Shown: piece by piece, positions 6,790 to 33,510 of the stretch
How the letters are laid out: the number at the start of each line of letters is the position of its first letter
How positions within the stretch are numbered: position 1 is the stretch's first letter
Assembly: GCA_016926065.1 (NCBI GenBank)
Contig: JAFGPI010000013.1
Coordinates: forward strand, 1 to 33,919
Reading direction: 5' to 3'
Source: Candidatus Krumholzibacteriota bacterium
GTDB taxonomy: Bacteria > Krumholzibacteriota > Krumholzibacteriia > Krumholzibacteriales > Krumholzibacteriaceae
Length of the DNA: 33,919 nucleotides
Translations under genes and position numbers: made by a program
The notes under the pieces: model-generated
Told to the model about the DNA's origin: nothing
The model's database searches: none
What the model saw: only the letters and a program-made list of their open reading frames with translations

Positions 6790-9138
6790 CTATTGGTGCG
6801 GAGAGGTGTCGATGCTGATGGTGGTATCGCACTTGATGGTGATATTTCCGGTAAAAAAAGCCTCCCCCAGGTGATTGAGCAGGTTGATTTCGTAATCCCC
6901 TCGCTGGAACCGCCGTTCCTTGATGAGAGGTAATTGCACGGTGATGATCTCCTCCTGGGGGCAGTAAGGGCCCGTTCTGCGCAGGGTGGATTGGCATACC
7001 ATCCCCTCCACGAAGATTGTCGCGTCGGCATATCTCTTTTGCAGGTCGCAGGCTACTCTCAGGTTTTCTCCCTCGCGCAGGGTAAAGGTTTTTTCGTTGT
7101 ACCAGCCCAGCGCGTAAAAAGACGCCGCGTACCTTCCGGTTTCAAGCTGCATCGATTCCAAAGGGGTTTTCGCTCCGGACGGCAGGGGGTTGACGAAGGT
7201 TCCCTGCGATTCGGGGTGGGTCTCGGAGAGATAGACCCGCAGGCCGGAGACGCCGGAGGCACCGCAGGAGGGGATATTGGCGATGAAGGAGACGCTTCCG
7301 AACTTCTTCTCCCGTTCGAAGTAGATGCTGATATTTTTGGTGCGCCGGGCCTGCACCTCGATCGGCCGCACCACATCCTCCCGCCCCGGCTTGCTGAAGG
7401 TGAGGGAGCCGACGGCGGTGGGCACCGGTATATCCTTATCCAGATTCAGATGGCTAAAATATCTTTTCCCCAGGTATTCCTCCTCCCGGGGGGACAGTCC
7501 CGCTCCGGGAGTGATCTTTACGCCGCAATCCCCCGTATCCTGCAATGGCACATTACTTCTTTCTCCCCCCTGGTACCGCCGGTCGAAAAAACTGACTTGG
7601 AGGTATCCGATCTCCGGCTCCAGCTCCAGCCGCACCGGCCGGTCCAGGGGTAAAGTCCTGGCCGGTCCGGTTTCCCCGGGAGAGATGTTCCGCAGTTGCA
7701 GTCCGTCCTGCTCGATCCGGATCTCGAAGCTGGCGCCCGCGTAATCCTCGTGGTCCAGGTGGAACTGGTACCGCCCGGCCGGGAGGGCCGCCCGGATGGT
7801 GTCTCCTCCGGTATAATAGAGCCGGAAGGAATCGATCACGGTCTCGGCGGGCTTGAAGGAGTTGGGATTGAAAGCCTCCGGGGGGATGGTGATCAGGACT
7901 AGGGGAAAGATCATGGGCCGCAGCTCGAAAGTGAAGGCGTTATCCCCTCCAGCGGATATATCAACGAAAGATTCCAGCGGGGAAAAACCGTCCGCCTCCA
8001 CCAGCAGTTTCCTTTTTCCCAGCAGTACCCGGGAGAATTCGAAGGGCCGGCGGTTGCTGTCGGCCTGCCTGCGGCTTTTCCATAAGATATTGTCCAGAGT
8101 GACGGTTATATCGCGCGCGTTCGCCGTTTCTATCGAAACGGCGGCCGGCTGCAGGAGAAAAAAGTGTCCCAGCAGTACCAAGGCGACCAGCGGAACGACT
8201 GTTAGGACGAACCGGACCGTTTTTTTTCGGGTGGGGGAGAGGCGCGGGGGCAGGATTTTTTTCATGCTGTCCTCTTCCCGGCCCATATGCCCGGTTTCGA
8301 TCAGGGCGGCGCGGAAGGCCTCCAGCATTTTCCTGACGTCGGAGTAACGGTCTTCCCTATCTTTCTGGAGGCATTTATCGATGACATTGGCGATTTCCAC
8401 CGGGATCTCTTTTTTCAGGGTGTCCAGGCGGATCGGAGTTTCGGTGAGGATGGCGGTGAGGATCGATCCTTTCGAGGTCTTGCTGAAGGGTATGGTGCCC
8501 CCCAGCATCTCGTACAACAAAGCTCCCAGCGAGTATATGTCGGAACGGTGGTCGAGCTCCCGGCCCTCGGCCTGTTCCGGAGATAGATATCCCAGGGTAC
8601 CCTTCAGGCCTATCGTTTTGGTGGTGTCGGTTTCCTGGAAGCGGGCCAATCCGAAGTCGCAGATATAGACATGATCGTCCGGGTCCAGGAGGATATTGGC
8701 CGGTTTTATATCGCGGTGAACGATCTTTTTGGGATGGTTGTGGGCGTAATACAATCCGTCGCAGATGCCCCGCAATATCTTCCAGGTCCGGGCCAGAGGG
8801 ATGGTCCGGCCGTTCGCCAGCTCCTTTTCCAGGCTGCCGGAAACGTATTTCATCACGAAATAGATATAATCCGCGCTGTCCAGGTCGTTGATACCGCGGG
8901 GAACCACTTTGTAGACGGGCACTATATGGGGATTATCGGAAAGCTCGCCCAGGAATTCGGCGTCCTTTACGAAATTGGGGAGGTTGATATCCGGTTTGGC
9001 GAATTTTAGCGCTACCTGGCGATTACCGAGGGAAGTGTCTTCGGCGATGTAGACCACGGAATAGTTTGTCGAATATATCTTTTTCTTGATTCGAAACTCA
9101 TCGACACTTTTACCCTCGAGATCATGTACCGATTTCAT
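6790..9138 (-). CDS. transmembrane Ser/Thr protein kinase with PEGA-like extracytoplasmic domains
   Basis: A 782-residue Hanks-type kinase. The kinase domain spans about residues 14-275: Lys45 in VALKFAKP, HRDIKPAN at 141-148, DFG at 161-163 and SPEQ at 186-189 are all present. Oddly, the ATP-binding loop reads IYSTNYSVVY and has none of the usual glycines. A transmembrane helix follows at about 308-330, then some 450 extracytoplasmic residues. Residues about 335-410 (VLLGKRKLLVEADGFSPLES) and 411-490 (LPAGRYQFHLDHEDYAGA) look like PEGA beta-sandwiches; the remainder is beta-rich and unrecognised. The layout fits a sensor that reads the envelope and phosphorylates cytoplasmic targets. No clear ribosome site precedes the ATG. 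It follows the outer-membrane protein genes on the same strand after a 339-base repeat-bearing gap. PEGA assignment is inference. Confidence 0.92.
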   Translation of the reverse strand: MKSVHDLEGKSVDEFRIKKKIYSTNYSVVYIAEDTSLGNRQVALKFAKPDINLPNFVKDAEFLGELSDNPHIVPVYKVVPRGINDLDSADYIYFVMKYVSGSLEKELANGRTIPLARTWKILRGICDGLYYAHNHPKKIVHRDIKPANILLDPDDHVYICDFGLARFQETDTTKTIGLKGTLGYLSPEQAEGRELDHRSDIYSLGALLYEMLGGTIPFSKTSKGSILTAILTETPIRLDTLKKEIPVEIANVIDKCLQKDREDRYSDVRKMLEAFRAALIETGHMGREEDSMKKILPPRLSPTRKKTVRFVLTVVPLVALVLLGHFFLLQPAAVSIETANARDITVTLDNILWKSRRQADSNRRPFEFSRVLLGKRKLLVEADGFSPLESFVDISAGGDNAFTFELRPMIFPLVLITIPPEAFNPNSFKPAETVIDSFRLYYTGGDTIRAALPAGRYQFHLDHEDYAGASFEIRIEQDGLQLRNISPGETGPARTLPLDRPVRLELEPEIGYLQVSFFDRRYQGGERSNVPLQDTGDCGVKITPGAGLSPREEEYLGKRYFSHLNLDKDIPVPTAVGSLTFSKPGREDVVRPIEVQARRTKNISIYFEREKKFGSVSFIANIPSCGASGVSGLRVYLSETHPESQGTFVNPLPSGAKTPLESMQLETGRYAASFYALGWYNEKTFTLREGENLRVACDLQKRYADATIFVEGMVCQSTLRRTGPYCPQEEIITVQLPLIKERRFQRGDYEINLLNHLGEAFFTGNITIKCDTTISIDTSPHQ

Positions 9139-26986: not shown

Positions 26987-28426
26987 TCACCCGCCGCCGC
27001 CGCTGCCGCCGCCGATGGCCCCGTTAAGCTCTTCCAGGAACTCGATAGCCTTGTCTATCCGGGTATTGAGGGGACCATTGGACTTCAAAATATCTCGCGA
27101 TGACTGGATCATTTCCGAATTCTCCGTGGAAGCAAGCGCTTCAGCGGCGATTGCCTCCGCCCAAGCCAACATTACATTCTGCAGCTCGGGATCCTCCACC
27201 ATACCCCTCCCGCTTACATGGTTGAATTCGGCCGTGAGAAGTTCCTTGAGAAGAATCAGAAGGGGATCCTTTTTTGACATGGATTTGAGGAGATCCGGCA
27301 AGGCGCCCTTTTTGGATATCGCATTCAGGGCGTTATGGCCTTGATCTCTTGCGGCTTTCTCTTTAAGGATATTCAGGGCTTCCTGGAACTCATTGCCGGG
27401 GGTGAACTGGAAAGGTTCAGGAAGGAAGAGTGCCTGGATCTGAACGAGGAACTGCGCCATGGTCTCGACGTCGTAGGTAGGATTCCCGTTACCGCCATGC
27501 AGGGCGGAACGTACCTCTTTTGTCCAGAACTTGGCCGGTTCGCCGGTGGTCAAGATTATGCCCTCTTCCAGATCAGCGGTGATCTCTTCCACCTGAGGAC
27601 TGAATCCGAAATCGTTGCCGGGCGAATCGGGCCCTATGCTAACGGTCACCGACGTCGGACCGGAAGGATCGAAGGACTCCGCCAGGGACTCGTTGAAATC
27701 CTCGGCGGGCGTGGCCGCTTCGATCAGCAGGGTGTAGGTACCCGCGTTGGCTAGGAATTCATAATCGCCGCCCAGGTCGGTGAGGGCCGTCTGGCTATGG
27801 CCGTCACCGTCGGATAGTGTCACGGTAACACCGGCGATGCCCGATTCCTCGGCAATATCCCTTACTCCGTCTCCATCAGCGTCGATATAGACATTTCCGG
27901 AGATCTCGTATCCACAGCCGGGACCGGCGATCTGCGCTACTGCGGGATCGTAGGGAAGCATAATACAGGTTCTGGTGATCCCTAAGGGGATATCTCCGGA
28001 AAAGGTGACCGAATAATCCCGGCTTTCGTCCATCCCCAAATCGTTATACCATTTGATCCCATAGAGGTCGATAGCAGAATGGATGTTAACGTATACCCCC
28101 GAGGGTTCCCAGTCAGCGGGATAAGGGACGCAATCGCCCAATTCAATGAAGAAGCTTAATAAATCGTGCTCGGCTCCGGCACCCGTCACCGTGTAGTAAA
28201 AAGTAGTCGCTTCTCCGTTATAATCACGGCCGGTGAATTCCACCAGGTAACCGTGTAACATGGCCGTTGTGGGGATCGAGGATTGGGAAGTTCCGGCGGT
28301 GGAAGTCAGGGTTGGAAGGTTTTCCTCCGGAGCCTCGGTCCTAAATATCTGTTCTTCCGTACTGCAACCGGCCAAGACAAGAGTCAGAAAGGAAAGCAGG
28401 GTAAGAATAAAATAGATACGTTTCAT
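26987..28426 (-). CDS. lipoprotein with SdrD_B-like domain
   Basis: A 479-residue lipoprotein: the signal ends in the lipobox LAGC (Cys20), so the mature protein is anchored by lipidated Cys. Residues about 55-175 are a beta-rich domain (FTGRDYNGEATTFYYTVTG, ending in GPGCGYE). Residues about 178-275 are an SdrD_B-like domain: SGNVYIDADGDGVRDIAEESG, then VTVTLSDGDG, then YEFLANAGTYTLLIE, where the Asp-rich loop should bind Ca2+. The C-terminal third is helical and unrecognised, and it ends in a glycine run (GGGSGGGG). Function unknown; a surface or periplasmic structural or adhesive role is a guess. A strong promoter lies at 28549-28577, giving a leader of about 115 bases with a hairpin. It is probably monocistronic. 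Confidence 0.88.
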   Translation of the reverse strand: MKRIYFILTLLSFLTLVLAGCSTEEQIFRTEAPEENLPTLTSTAGTSQSSIPTTAMLHGYLVEFTGRDYNGEATTFYYTVTGAGAEHDLLSFFIELGDCVPYPADWEPSGVYVNIHSAIDLYGIKWYNDLGMDESRDYSVTFSGDIPLGITRTCIMLPYDPAVAQIAGPGCGYEISGNVYIDADGDGVRDIAEESGIAGVTVTLSDGDGHSQTALTDLGGDYEFLANAGTYTLLIEAATPAEDFNESLAESFDPSGPTSVTVSIGPDSPGNDFGFSPQVEEITADLEEGIILTTGEPAKFWTKEVRSALHGGNGNPTYDVETMAQFLVQIQALFLPEPFQFTPGNEFQEALNILKEKAARDQGHNALNAISKKGALPDLLKSMSKKDPLLILLKELLTAEFNHVSGRGMVEDPELQNVMLAWAEAIAAEALASTENSEMIQSSRDILKSNGPLNTRIDKAIEFLEELNGAIGGGSGGGG

Positions 28427-28503
28427 TATGATCCCCCTAAAGGAAAAAATGATAAAAGTCCCCCTTCCAGATTATTCCCCGGGGAGGGTCGTCCGGATTA
28501 GGG

Positions 28504-28528
28504 ATCGCAAGGCGTAACCTTTTGCGAT
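28504..28528 (-). promoter_or_regulatory. hairpin in the lipoprotein mRNA leader
   Basis: On the minus strand ATCGCAA-(AA)-GG pairs with CCTTGCGAT around the loop TTACG: nine base pairs with a two-base bulge. It starts about 14 bases after the predicted transcription start, so it would lie near the 5' end of the mRNA and could stabilise it or bind a regulator. No known riboswitch class is recognised. Confidence 0.5.
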
Positions 28529-28548
28529 TCTTTAGTTTGTCGGAAATT

Positions 28549-28577
28549 ATTATAGCAGAGATTTGAACCTAGGTCAA
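28549..28577 (-). promoter_or_regulatory. strong sigma-70 promoter for the lipoprotein gene
   Basis: TTGACC (28572-28577), 17 bases, then a perfect TATAAT (28549-28554) on the minus strand. The -35 begins 20 bases after the stop codon of the double-kinase gene. The predicted start is near 28542. Confidence 0.75.
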
Positions 28578-28596: not shown

Positions 28597-31500
28597 TCAC
28601 CTATTCGCACTATTTAGACGCTCCCTGACGGTCTCGAGAAGTTTTTCAAACTCGGGATCCCCGCGCAGGGAGGAGAGATCTTTATCCTCGAAGATAACCG
28701 CCAGGGCGAAGCCGCGCTCTATGGCTTCTCGCAGGAAATCGACCGCCTCCCGGCGCTTGCCCTGGAGGGCGGAGACGCAGGCCAGGTTGTAGTAGCTCTC
28801 GATGATACGGGGATGATCCGGGCGCAGGTTCTTCTTCCTTATGGCCAGGGCGCGCAAATGGATCTCCTTGGTCTTTTCCAGATCTCCAGATGCCATATAC
28901 AGGTTGGCGCAGGTGTTGAGGGTGTGGGCCAGATCGGGATGCTCCGGACCCAGGACCTTCTCCTGGATCGACAGGGCCCGGGAGTTGTACTGGCGCGCTT
29001 TCTGGTTTTCCCCCAGGAACCAATGCAGGGTGGACAGGTTGTTGAGGCTGGTGGCGACCAGGGGATGATCGGGGCCGTAGGCCTTCTCGCGGATTGCCAG
29101 GGCGCGCTCGTACAGGGGCAGGGCGGCCCGGTACTCTCCCTTTGCCTCGAGCACGATGGCCAGTCCGTTGAGAGTATTGGATACGTCGACATGATCGGGA
29201 CCCAATGTTTTTTCCCTTAGGGCCAGGGCCTCCCGGTATAGGGATATGGCCCGGTCGAAGTCCCTCGTCTGCCGGTAGAGATTGGCTAAATTGCTTATGG
29301 CCTTGCCTACTTCCGGATTGTCCGGACCCAGTAGTTTTTTCCGCAGGGCCAGGGAATGCTCGAAAAGGGGACGGGCACCCTCGAAATCCCCGATAGAGCC
29401 GAGCAGAGTGGCCAGCTCCTGCTGGCTGCAGGCCACCTCCAGGTTCTCCTCCCCCAGTTCCCTTCGCCTCAGGGCCAGGGATTCCTCCAGCAGGGAACGG
29501 GACTGGCCGTATAAACCGAGGTTCATGTATACCCGGCCCATGGTGACCATCAGGCGGGCCTGTATCAGAGGTTGGTTTTCCAGCTCCCGGATGATCTTTT
29601 CCGCGCCTTTGTCCAGGATCTCGCGGGCGGTGACCGTGTTGCCCCGGGCCTCGCCGGGATCGGACACCTCGAACAGGCCCTCCAGGAATGTCGATACCCG
29701 GCTGGCGGTCTCGGCCTCTTCCCGGGCCACCCTTTCGGCTTTTATGGCCCTTATCAGCCCGATGGTGGTGCCGGTGATTCCCAGCAGCAGCGCCAGCACC
29801 ACCAGGGAGGCGGCGGCCACTCCCACCTTGTGCCTGATGATGAACTTCTTCAGGCGGTATATGGTGCTCGGGGGACTGGCCAGAACCGGTTCGTTGTTCA
29901 GGTGGCGCTGTATATCGGCCGCCAGGTCCGCGGCGGAGGCGTAGCGGCGGCTCCGGTCCTTGTCCAGCGCCTTCATGATGATCCAGTCGAGATCGCCTTT
30001 CAACTGGCTGGACAGGCGCGCCGGATCGGTATGATGCCTCTCGGCCAGGGGAACCGCCCCCTCGCCCAGGGTGGTGACCTTGGTGCTCGGCATGGGGGGT
30101 TCCACCTCCCGGATCATCTTACGGATCCCCTCGAATCCCGACTCCCGCAGCACCTTGGAATCGAAGGGAAGCGCGCCGGTGAGGAGCTCGTACAGGATAA
30201 CGCCCAGGGAGTACACGTCCGTCCTGGTATCGATATCTTCCCCTGTCAGTTCGGCCTGCTCGGGGCTCATGTATTCGGGGGTTCCGATCAACTGGCCCAG
30301 GTGCGTGAACATGGTCCTTTCGGTCAGGGGCTGGGCCGTAGCCTTGGCTACGCCGAAATCGATGATCTTGGGCACCGGCTTGTCGTCCACTACCGTGATC
30401 AGAACGTTACTGGGCTTGAGATCCCGGTGGATCACGGCCTTATGGTGGGCGTGCTGAACCCCCTCGCACAGCAGCATGAAGAGTTTCAAGCGCTCCCCGG
30501 TGGCGAGCCGGTGACGATCGCAGTACTTATCGATGGAGATCCCCTTGATATACTCCATGGCGATATAGGGGCGTCCGGTGGCCGTCGAGCCGGCGTCGTA
30601 CACCTGGGCGATGCAGGGATGGTCCATGAGCGCCAGGGCCTGCCTCTCCGCTTCGAAACGGGCCACCACCTCGGCGGTATCCATACCCGGTTTGAGGATT
30701 TTCAGGGCAACCTTGCGGTGAAAGGGCTTCTCCTGCTCGGCCGACCATACCTCGCCCATGCCCCCGATTCCGATTCTCTCGCGCAGACGGTAATTGCCCA
30801 CCGTATCGCCCGCGCTGGCGAGCTTCGATTCGGCCGGTTTCGAAACCTTGGCCGCTTCCGGGAAACGGGCCTGGACCCCGGGGATGCCTTGCAGCTCGGC
30901 GATAAATTCTTTCATGGAGGAAAGGCGTTTCTCCCTATCCTTCTGGAGGGCCCGGTCGATCAGATCCTGGATGCGGGAGGGAAGGTTCGTTCTATAATAT
31001 TCGAGCGGCTGGGGATCCTCGTTCACTATGCGGTACATCATGGCCATTTCGTGGTCGGCCGCGAAGGGGTGTTCCCCCGTAAGCATTTCGTATAACATCA
31101 CCCCCAAGGAGAAGATATCGGACCGGGCATCGACCTCCTCGCCGTTGACCTGCTCCGGAGACATGTAGGCCACCGTGCCCAGCAGGCTGCCGGCCATGGT
31201 CATGACCGTTTGCCCCGCCAGCTTGGCCACTCCGAAATCGAGAATCTTCAGCTGACCGTCCCCGGTGATCATCACGTTGGCGGGCTTTATATCGCGGTGG
31301 ACGATTCCCTGTTCATGGGCCCGGGATAGGCCGGAAGCGACCTGGGTTATTATCTCCAGGGTCTGCTCGGGTTCCGGAATCCTCTTTTGCATGCGCTGCC
31401 GGAGGCTTTCGCCCTCGTAATAGGCCATGGCCATGAACATCTGTCCGTCGGTAAGGTCGCCTATCTCGTAGATGGTACAGATGTTGGGGTGCTCCAGGGC

Positions 31501-31686
31501 GGAGGCCGCCTTGGCTTCGCGGATAAAGCGTTTCTTGAGTCCCTCCTCGGCGCTTAGATGGGGAGGGAGCAGTTTGAGAGCGACGAAGCGGTCCAGGTTC
31601 AGGTCCTGGGCCTTGTAGACCGTGCCCATTCCGCCTTCGCCGAGCGCCTCGATTATCCTGAAGTGTGATACGGTTTTCCCTATCAT
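28597..31686 (-). CDS. membrane Ser/Thr protein kinase with two kinase domains and C-terminal TPRs
   Basis: A 1029-residue receptor-like protein. Kinase domain one (about 8-268) has the full set: GEGGMG loop at 16-21, Lys38, HRDIKPAN from 130, DFG at 150-152, SPEQ. Kinase domain two (about 299-595) is also complete: GIGGMGEVW from 306, Lys329, HRDLKPSN from 420, DFG at 443-445, SPEQ. A transmembrane helix follows at about 621-645. Residues about 705-985 hold kinesin-light-chain-like TPRs with a 42-residue period, each with LGPDHPxVxxxLNxLA-like and ALAIREK-like parts. A closing module (FEDKDLSSLRGDPEFEKLL) is usual for such proteins. The kinases should face the cytoplasm and the TPRs the periplasm. 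The start is the Met just before the kinase fold, and a perfect promoter lies only 9 bases upstream. Two different kinase subtypes in one chain is unusual. Confidence 0.95.
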   Translation of the reverse strand: MIGKTVSHFRIIEALGEGGMGTVYKAQDLNLDRFVALKLLPPHLSAEEGLKKRFIREAKAASALEHPNICTIYEIGDLTDGQMFMAMAYYEGESLRQRMQKRIPEPEQTLEIITQVASGLSRAHEQGIVHRDIKPANVMITGDGQLKILDFGVAKLAGQTVMTMAGSLLGTVAYMSPEQVNGEEVDARSDIFSLGVMLYEMLTGEHPFAADHEMAMMYRIVNEDPQPLEYYRTNLPSRIQDLIDRALQKDREKRLSSMKEFIAELQGIPGVQARFPEAAKVSKPAESKLASAGDTVGNYRLRERIGIGGMGEVWSAEQEKPFHRKVALKILKPGMDTAEVVARFEAERQALALMDHPCIAQVYDAGSTATGRPYIAMEYIKGISIDKYCDRHRLATGERLKLFMLLCEGVQHAHHKAVIHRDLKPSNVLITVVDDKPVPKIIDFGVAKATAQPLTERTMFTHLGQLIGTPEYMSPEQAELTGEDIDTRTDVYSLGVILYELLTGALPFDSKVLRESGFEGIRKMIREVEPPMPSTKVTTLGEGAVPLAERHHTDPARLSSQLKGDLDWIIMKALDKDRSRRYASAADLAADIQRHLNNEPVLASPPSTIYRLKKFIIRHKVGVAAASLVVLALLLGITGTTIGLIRAIKAERVAREEAETASRVSTFLEGLFEVSDPGEARGNTVTAREILDKGAEKIIRELENQPLIQARLMVTMGRVYMNLGLYGQSRSLLEESLALRRRELGEENLEVACSQQELATLLGSIGDFEGARPLFEHSLALRKKLLGPDNPEVGKAISNLANLYRQTRDFDRAISLYREALALREKTLGPDHVDVSNTLNGLAIVLEAKGEYRAALPLYERALAIREKAYGPDHPLVATSLNNLSTLHWFLGENQKARQYNSRALSIQEKVLGPEHPDLAHTLNTCANLYMASGDLEKTKEIHLRALAIRKKNLRPDHPRIIESYYNLACVSALQGKRREAVDFLREAIERGFALAVIFEDKDLSSLRGDPEFEKLLETVRERLNSANR

Positions 31687-31695
31687 GGAAATGCA

Positions 31696-31724
31696 ATTAT
31701 AAAAAGTCCATTTTTTGCTGTCAA
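31696..31724 (-). promoter_or_regulatory. perfect-consensus sigma-70 promoter giving a nearly leaderless mRNA
   Basis: On the minus strand a perfect TTGACA (31719-31724) and a perfect TATAAT (31696-31701) are 17 bases apart. Only nine bases separate the -10 from the ATG (31684-31686) of the double kinase. Transcription should start near 31689, leaving a leader of about three bases and no room for a Shine-Dalgarno site. Confidence 0.8.
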
Positions 31725-31818: not shown

Positions 31819-33510
31819 TCAATCGGACCGCCGGCAGAGGCGTTTCCCCGCTTCGGCCGCGTACACGCGGGCTTCCCAGTCGGAGTCCGAGCGGGCCATC
31901 GAATCCAACTCCGTGCACGCCCGGTCCGTTCCCGTTTTTACCAGGGCGATGACCGCGCGCCGCCTGACCCAGGCATCCTTGTCCCCCAGTCCCGCCAGGA
32001 TAAGATCGACGGCCTTTTCCGATCCCAGTATTCCCAGGGCGTCGATGGCCCCGATCCTGATCCATTTAGACTCCGAGCGAAGATAGATCCTTACCCCCTC
32101 GAGTACCTCCTCCGCCTTAAGGAAGGCCAGGGATCTTAGGGCCGACATCTGCACGAATTTTTCGGGATCGTCGAAAAGAGCAAGAAGCGGCTCCACCGCG
32201 TCGCGGGAAGACATGGCCCCCAGCGCTCGAGCGGCCCCCGAACGGATATCAGGCGAGGGATCCTCCAACGCCTCTACGAGGTGGGGTACGGCCTGCCGTG
32301 CCGCCATCCGGCCCAGATGTTGGATGGCCAATTTCCTGACCTCCAGCAGCTCGCTTTCCATCAGCCTTATAAAATGTTCCTCGGCGGGCGGGCCGTAGGA
32401 TCGCAGGCGGTCCGCCAGGTGATATCTGGCCAGCCTGCCCTGTTCCCTGTCCAGCCGGTCGGCCAGTTCCGCCAGTTCTTGGCTTTTACTGGCGGCCGGT
32501 TTGAAGAGGGTGGTTATCCTTCTGGCCCCGTCCAGGTAGAAGAGGGAGGATATACACAACAACAGCGCGGTATAGATCGAAAGCACCGCCGCCACCTCTC
32601 TCTTTCGCCCGGGCAGATCCTTCTTGAACATTAATTTCAAGGGCAGCGAAAAGAATCGCCTCAGAAAGCGGGGCAGGGGAAAGAGGAAGGGAGCGCTGAG
32701 GCGGTATCCGGCATACGCTTCGCCGTGCCGGTGCTCCATCTTGATCTCTTCCACCATGGCCACGCCGACGATGAAGATGGTTGACAGTAGCCAGGGCAGG
32801 CTGCCGCTGATACCCCAGGACCGTTTGGGGTACCGCGCCAGGAGGAGCAGCAGGTAAACACCGTAGCTCCAGAGGATCCATCCGGCGTACTGGGGATGGC
32901 GCGAGAGGCGGTATATCCAGAGGTCCGCCACCTTTTTCCTGCCGGCGCGCGACGAGAGCCAGGCGTAGGTGCCCAGGAAGAAGACCAGCAGTCCGCCGCC
33001 TATGAAGAAATATACGATATACCAATAGGCGTTTAATCCCATACGGCGCAGCAGCCAGTTCAGAAGGTCGAAAGGGGCGTGTATGACCATCCCCAGCCGT
33101 TGCAGGTCGAACGATATGTCCAAGAGGGGGAGCCAGAGAACATTGAGCACTCCCAGGCCGGCGAGGAAGAACATGACGCCGGCGAACTGAGCGAAGACGG
33201 GAAGCATGAAGGTGAAGGCCCCCACCGCCGCCAAGCCGGTGCGCCTGGTGGAGAATCCGATGATAAGCAGTAGTATCATCACGGCGAAACAGGCATAGCC
33301 GATCTCGCGGAGATGGTAGTGACCGATGAAAAGTTCCGTCTGGAGCCGGCTGGTCTCGTCCACCTGGGAGTCAAAGTCAGGAGTGGTGAGGTTATCTTGG
33401 AGGACATGATCGATCCTGTAGGGAAGCTCCACCGTCGCGAAACTGAGACCGATGGTGAACACGATCGCCAGGAATCCCAGGAATATGGGCTGCAGGAACC
33501 GGTTTTTCAT
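31819..33510 (-). CDS. membrane protein: isoprenylcysteine-methyltransferase-like domain fused to HEAT repeats
   Basis: A 563-residue inner-membrane protein. About seven to eight hydrophobic helices fill residues 8-250. The motif RLSRHPQYAGWILWSYG (201-217), followed by EE at 254-255 and HGEAYAGYR (262-270), is the S-adenosylmethionine-binding signature of the ICMT/PEMT-type membrane methyltransferases. One more helix lies at about 305-326. Residues about 375-560 are HEAT repeats with a 31-residue period (VRKLAIQHLGRM, IRSGAARALGAM, VQMSALRSLAFL, IRIGAIDALGIL, VRRRAVIALVKT). HEAT repeats bind proteins, so this part may recruit the substrate. The methylated substrate is unknown; bacterial relatives act on lipids, sulfide or amines as well. 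GAAGG precedes the ATG. It lies 132 bases upstream of the double kinase on the same strand. Confidence 0.88.
   Translation of the reverse strand: MKNRFLQPIFLGFLAIVFTIGLSFATVELPYRIDHVLQDNLTTPDFDSQVDETSRLQTELFIGHYHLREIGYACFAVMILLLIIGFSTRRTGLAAVGAFTFMLPVFAQFAGVMFFLAGLGVLNVLWLPLLDISFDLQRLGMVIHAPFDLLNWLLRRMGLNAYWYIVYFFIGGGLLVFFLGTYAWLSSRAGRKKVADLWIYRLSRHPQYAGWILWSYGVYLLLLLARYPKRSWGISGSLPWLLSTIFIVGVAMVEEIKMEHRHGEAYAGYRLSAPFLFPLPRFLRRFFSLPLKLMFKKDLPGRKREVAAVLSIYTALLLCISSLFYLDGARRITTLFKPAASKSQELAELADRLDREQGRLARYHLADRLRSYGPPAEEHFIRLMESELLEVRKLAIQHLGRMAARQAVPHLVEALEDPSPDIRSGAARALGAMSSRDAVEPLLALFDDPEKFVQMSALRSLAFLKAEEVLEGVRIYLRSESKWIRIGAIDALGILGSEKAVDLILAGLGDKDAWVRRRAVIALVKTGTDRACTELDSMARSDSDWEARVYAAEAGKRLCRRSD

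Follow-up and report, generated by a model that had tools for sequence, protein, structure and literature searches.

A consensus promoter nine nucleotides upstream of a tandem Ser/Thr kinase gene predicts a functionally leaderless mRNA and has a spacing that recurs in related kinases

In bacteria, leaderless mRNAs are a known class, often viewed as a trait of the whole genome in certain phyla. In the draft genome of a Candidatus Krumholzibacteriota bacterium, a promoter with two perfect consensus hexamers lies so close to the start codon of a large kinase gene that it raises two questions: is this gene transcribed with virtually no leader, and is the arrangement a property of the single gene, of its family or of the genome as a whole? 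We addressed these questions in a stretch of 33,919 nucleotides (GCA_016926065.1, contig JAFGPI010000013.1, positions 1 to 33,919), hereafter called the window, and in related genomes. The features of the window on which the argument rests are the following.

31819..33510, minus strand: upstream co-directional gene with HEAT repeats and weak DUF1295/ICMT matches
31719..31724, minus strand: -35 hexamer TTGACA, 6/6 consensus (sequence reading and promoter scan)
31702..31718, minus strand: 17-base spacer GCAAAAAATGGACTTTT, with TTT at its end (sequence reading)
31696..31701, minus strand: -10 hexamer TATAAT, 6/6 consensus (sequence reading and promoter scan)
31687..31695, minus strand: 9-nt stretch between the -10 hexamer and the ATG, TGCATTTCC, made up of TGCATT and a predicted 3-nt leader, TCC
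31686..31689, minus strand: predicted range of the transcription start, from the sequence and published start-site rules (PMC3160421, PMC3898074)
28597..31686, minus strand: kinase gene, 1029 aa, with two Pkinase domains, a hydrophobic stretch and TPR repeats
30913..31659, minus strand: first kinase domain, residues 10-258
29941..30792, minus strand: second kinase domain
28549..28577, minus strand: promoter-like TTGACC-17-TATAAT that carries a TG, located between the kinase gene and the downstream gene
26987..28426, minus strand: downstream gene with an SdrD B-like domain and, by eye, a lipoprotein-like start

The kinase gene encodes a protein with two Pkinase stretches (Pfam, E 6.8e-99), each of which carries Hanks-type motifs in the translation (HRDIKPAN/DFG and HRDLKPSN/DFG), followed by a hydrophobic stretch that, on visual inspection, we took for a single membrane span, and then by TPR repeats. 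These domains mark the protein as a tandem Hanks-type Ser/Thr kinase that also has TPR repeats. The original prediction had described it as a receptor or sensor kinase; the kinase part of this description stands, whereas the receptor part is a guess, because Pfam recognised no ligand-binding domain and, beyond the hydrophobic stretch, there are just TPR repeats. The protein resembles PknB-kind kinases (Pkinase PF00069; NF033483) in its kinase domains, but differs from them in having two such domains in tandem, TPR repeats and a promoter that overlaps the start of its gene. Its NF033483 score exceeds the cut-off (562 vs 450 bits, in three stretches); however, PASTA is absent among the 19 Pfam families listed for it, so that the name PASTA kinase is not applicable despite this score. 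The gene that follows is matched downstream of both of the orthologues considered below, and the promoter-like site preceding it suggests that it and the kinase gene may be separate transcription units. A 13-bp hairpin lies between the two genes (window 28500-28577). Elsewhere, the window contains another gene for a Ser/Thr kinase, this one matching a PEGA domain (6790-9138).

Sequence comparison places the start codon of the kinase firmly. The ATG at 31686-31684 on the minus strand is the first ATG, GTG or TTG downstream of an in-frame stop codon, and the first nine residues, MIGKTVSHF, align with the sequence MIG[KQER]T[IV]SH[YF] of its relatives, 81/86 of which, when aligned, have a standard start codon (ATG, GTG or TTG) at the same residue. 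The claim that the choice of ATG is fixed was thus borne out, and relatives that start further upstream behind a Shine-Dalgarno (SD) sequence, named in the original prediction as what would refute the leaderless reading, were not seen, the start position being common to the relatives. A true start further downstream, which would provide an ordinary leader, could use the next in-frame ATG at codon 20. This codon lies within the glycine loop, however, and initiation there would cost the protein its first strand and some of that loop (GEGGMG), along with residues 1-9 that are common to dozens of relatives, so that we regard this alternative as hardly credible.

Upstream of this codon, direct reading confirmed the predicted arrangement of TTGACA, 17 bases and TATAAT, with perfect hexamers and nine nucleotides to the ATG. 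The site matches the sigma-70 pattern TTGACA/16-18/TATAAT in 12/12 positions, with a spacer of 17. Since the spacer ends in TTT, it lacks the TGN of an extended -10 element, and the description of the promoter as the strongest possible was an overstatement. No SD-like motif was found when we searched the 9-nt stretch (31687..31695). The seventh base downstream of the -10 hexamer is position 31689, and the A of the ATG (31686) is the sole purine among positions 7-10 after the hexamer. Purines account for 85% of transcription starts in the work of Cortes et al. (2013, PMC3898074), who class a start lying no more than 5 bp from the codon as leaderless. Zheng et al. (2011, PMC3160421) describe leaderless bacterial genes with a TANNNT signal ~10-12 bp upstream of the start and place the -10 signals ~12 bp from it, measured from the first T. 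In the window, the hexamer has its first T 15 nt from the ATG, i.e., 3 nt beyond the mode given by Zheng et al., which suggests a leader of ~3 nt and hence no room for an SD sequence. A predicted kinase mRNA with a leader of about this length is well supported by the comparison with related kinases given below, in which the 9-nt spacing recurs, and the original proposal of a transcript start ~3 nt before the ATG holds up as a prediction.

Perfect promoters of this kind are rare by chance. The window contains one match to TTGACA-N15-19-TATAAT, compared with a mean of 0.01 in dinucleotide shuffles, and 1/100 shuffled windows contained such a site. The 3.02-Mb draft genome to which it belongs has 15 perfect sites and no match to a reversed control pattern, indicating that perfect promoters are real signals in this genome. 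For ten of the other 14 sites, a longer ORF has its nearest plausible start 15-76 nt downstream, and seven of these ten show an SD-like motif at a candidate start; the remaining four precede no longer ORF (ORFs of at least 35 codons were listed), and very short peptides are possible there. One of these four heads an FMN riboswitch (L012:231-354); among short conserved transcripts, Rfam recognised just this riboswitch and a tRNA. Of the 15 sites, that of the window alone was seen where a long ORF starts. The spacing from promoter to the next ATG, among the matches listed, had first hinted at many close starts, but this line was dropped because the close ATGs at these 15 sites, that of the window excepted, open no ORF of more than 36 codons. 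The analysis was then anchored on kinase starts fixed by homology.

For this purpose, 86 related kinase starts from the same genome and its relatives were chosen among the matches listed, ranked by similarity and, except for those of the first alignment, selected before their upstream DNA was seen. Fourteen aligned loci were left out (L013, L018, L023, L024, L029-L036, L054 and L055), because the aligned residue offered no start codon that could be fixed or because the N-terminus differs; L022 and L026 are copies of L014. Promoters were scored with an unfitted matrix of E. coli sigma-70 frequencies at 83 of the 86 starts, which include L174, L178 and L188, without a standard start codon at that residue, and exclude L049 (start not homologous), L159 (wrong cut base) and L043 (too short). 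At a score of at least 9, there were 45 sites over distances of 0-89 nt between the -10 hexamer and the start. Nine of the 83 starts had a promoter at a distance of exactly 9 nt, and the remaining distances between 0 and 19 nt were empty; 31 of the other 36 sites lay 45-76 nt upstream. The laxer score of 8 again gave nine sites at 9 nt and one each at 0, 3, 8 and 11 nt. The Poisson tail for this peak is ~6e-10, a value that, like the other p-values given here, serves as a guide only because the compared sequences are related.

A second search, independent of both the promoter score and the similarity rank, looked in 80 genomes of the class for the exact pattern TTGACA, N16-18, TANNNT, followed after 0-30 nt by the kinase N-terminus. 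All seven matches within this range lay at exactly 9 nt, with no control match, and one match was found at 31-61 nt. The seven came from four of the 80 genomes (one in the genome of the window, one in G015, four in G009 and one in G014), and six were already among the nine scored kinases, L271 being new. Allowing weaker hexamers raised the number of kinases with the 9-nt layout to 12, among them that of the window and a weak member, L166, with a promoter score of 7.0. The TGN of an extended -10 element is present in 11 of the 12, the exception being the window copy with its perfect hexamers. This recurrence exceeds what chance would produce, and the layout looks functional rather than accidental. 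Upstream of five of the 12 close promoters (L041, L180, L171, L195 and L271), a GGCRC-type box was noted by eye, starting ~25-28 bp upstream of TTGACA and in some cases taking the form of an 11-bp direct repeat (AGGCACAATTYA-like, twice); it is possibly an activator site. No such box was seen by eye at the window promoter.

The kinases with this layout also stand apart in their translation signals. An SD-like motif precedes 0/9 of them, the window copy included, as opposed to 43/72 of the other kinases, for which a control position yields 11/72. This comparison used 81 of the 86 starts (L174, L178 and L188 excluded, L043 included), and its SD pattern included GGGG, which was excluded from the non-kinase control. 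The latter drew on stretches of four genomes (that of the window, G006, G009 and G014) in which genes were called with a simple custom script and given several candidate starts each, a choice that favours the control. Such a promoter occurred at 9 nt in 3/810 sampled non-kinase genes and at 7-10 nt in 8/810; set against 9/83 kinases, the former figure gives a Fisher p of ~6e-8, again a guide only given the relatedness of the sequences. At 160 unambiguous non-kinase starts from the same samples, SD-like motifs were found in 100, compared with 30 at the control position, and no promoter peak was detected near the start. Two earlier controls, both superseded by this one, had pointed in the same direction; the first of them gave 31 SD-like motifs at 62 unambiguous starts vs 8 at the control position in the genome of the window, and 22 at 36 vs 5 in G006. 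The arrangement is rare in sampled other genes, but the window case is no singleton, being one of the 12 kinases that share it.

These controls bear on the idea that leaderless starts are a common mode of the lineage and that the kinases are not special. Close promoters do occur at some non-kinase genes of the relatives, whose translations read as ArsR-, PadR- and XRE-like regulators and a RelE-like ORF, so that the close-promoter mode is not exclusive to kinases, and the eight sampled genes with a site at 7-10 nt fit the same picture. Nevertheless, the prevalence of SD-like motifs and the lack of a promoter peak at the 160 starts, together with the single long-ORF start among the 15 perfect promoters, argue against a general mode, which we consider unlikely; according to the samples, these genomes mostly use SD sequences. 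Among the non-kinase sites, L229, L230 and L235 are HTH-like regulator genes, named by reading, with a GTATAC-type palindrome across the -10 hexamer, which is followed by ATGs at 6 and 9 nt; they are likely autoregulated genes with short leaders. L225 (G000:C213) and L232 (G008:C7) share TTGACA-17-TAGAAT and, at 9 nt, the ATG of a similar ORF of 15-16 codons, with similar sequence just past its stop codon. The region of this short ORF has no Rfam match at the gathering score, and the element is perhaps an undescribed small RNA or peptide.

The closest relatives of the window gene complicate the picture. The best nearly full-length orthologues among the matches listed, in G006 (72%) and G015 (71%), lack the 9-nt layout and have other upstream regions, with promoter-like sites (TTGACG-17-TAGCAT and TTGACT-17-TAACAT, respectively) that end 47 nt (by eye) and 61 nt (also by score) before the ATG. 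The expectation that promoter and spacing are conserved in relatives therefore fails for these two orthologues and holds, to the exact 9 nt, for a subset of the other related kinases; in G015 itself, the kinases L171 and L172 show the layout. Its absence from the two closest listed orthologues weakens the claim of selection on the window gene itself. It also lends some weight to the view that the consensus arose by chance near the ATG and that the kinase is expressed by other means. However, this reading has to contend with an expectation of 0.01 perfect sites per window, with the occurrence of the same spacing in 11 other kinases and with its rarity in the 810 sampled other genes, and we consider it quite improbable.

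On a tree of 46 kinase domains, ten of them labelled as having the layout (L271 is absent, and L166, represented as L252, was counted as lacking it), the layout is scattered. It requires seven changes, at least five of which are forced by well-supported branches, and shuffled labels gave a value as low as seven in 16/500 cases. A single origin of the layout is unsupported by these seven changes; the geometry reappears or survives on the kinase tree through at least five gains or losses. The folding energy of the first 50 coding nucleotides, considered as a possible mark of leaderless kinases, was dropped, as it showed no difference between kinases with the layout and the others (p 0.84). Codons 2-3 contain NTA in 8/9 layout kinases vs 16/72 others and GGG in 6/9 vs 9/72, a difference to which we attach little weight because the sequences are related.

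The upstream promoter-like sites of the orthologues also raise the possibility that the window gene is expressed in two modes, in which the close promoter yields a leaderless mRNA, and a second mRNA with a leader, arising by read-through from the upstream gene or from an upstream promoter that escaped notice, accounts for part or most of the protein. The co-directional upstream gene ends 132 nt from the kinase gene, and a simple scan detected no minus-strand terminator-like site between the two, so that a leadered read-through transcript is conceivable. Conversely, there is no SD-like motif before the kinase ATG, the same kind of scan revealed no second promoter-like site in the gap, and nothing matching the upstream gene was found when 3 kb (G006) and 1.5 kb (G015) ahead of the orthologues were compared. 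We regard two modes as possible but less probable than not; they are compatible with the reading we prefer, and the odds of the two overlap.

The reading we prefer, to which we assign a probability of roughly 0.8, is that a sigma-70 promoter drives a leaderless kinase mRNA with a geometry that is recurrent and apparently selected in a subset of the MIGxTxSHY Ser/Thr kinases of this bacterial family, rather than typical of the genome at large. RNA polymerase carrying a housekeeping, sigma-70-type factor would bind the consensus promoter overlapping the start of the gene and initiate either ~7 nt after the -10 hexamer, at position 31689, or with the A of the start codon (31686). Because the promoter overlaps the kinase start so closely, the transcript would begin 0-3 nt before the AUG, most likely as 5'-UCC-AUG or 5'-AUG, yielding a functionally leaderless mRNA devoid of an SD sequence and read through the 5'-AUG/70S route. 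We infer the activity of the promoter, the start nucleotide and the initiation route from this layout.

A classic regulator mRNA with a 5'-terminal AUG is the leaderless lambda cI transcript from PRM. Like cI, the window kinase is a regulator that would be read from a predicted 5'-terminal AUG; unlike it, the protein is a large kinase, and no repressor operator was seen in an unsystematic look at the window. A similar comparison can be drawn with the TA-led genes described by Zheng et al. (PMC3160421), with which the kinase shares a -10-like hexamer just upstream of the start (its first T, at 15 nt, lies within a range of ~10-15 nt), the lack of an SD sequence (0/9 layout kinases) and a certain start codon (81/86 relatives); occurrence of the layout in the closest listed orthologues, a supporting rather than a defining property, was not found in G006 and G015. 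In contrast to these genes, its hexamer begins 15 nt rather than ~12 nt from the start, the -35 hexamer also matches the consensus, and the layout clusters in one kinase family within genomes that mostly use SD sequences. In Mycobacterium tuberculosis, Cortes et al. (PMC3898074) report that 26% of the genes with a primary TSS are leaderless, without a -35 motif, and that TGN accompanies 7% of the TANNNT motifs. The kinase resembles these transcripts in its TANNNT element and in a predicted start within 5 nt of the codon, but the layout is rare in sampled genes, includes a -35 hexamer and, in the relatives, TGN. According to a review (PMC9031893), 70S ribosomes translate leaderless mRNAs from the 5' AUG; the review also mentions natural stress conditions that enhance leaderless translation and states that the MazF model was not reproducible by other laboratories.

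The kinase belongs to a known kind of gene, and it is the family-specific, fixed spacing that is new, as far as our literature search shows; in this search for leaderless kinase genes, two of the papers found, on M. tuberculosis kinases and phosphatases, used the word in their reference lists only. It is tempting to speculate, albeit with considerable doubt, that these kinases of an uncultured family form a translational regulon in which leaders of ~3 nt, fixed by a promoter locked at 9 nt, and the 5'-AUG route, against a background of mostly SD-led genes, would allow their synthesis to be shifted as a group upon a change in the mode of initiation. The significance of the layout lies in its concentration in one signalling family, with a spacing fixed to the base, in genomes that otherwise rely mostly on SD sequences. 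If 5' ends confirm the predicted starts, these kinases would provide a natural set for studying the regulatory role of a fixed short leader, with an internal contrast between leadered and leaderless kinase paralogues in one cell, as in G015.
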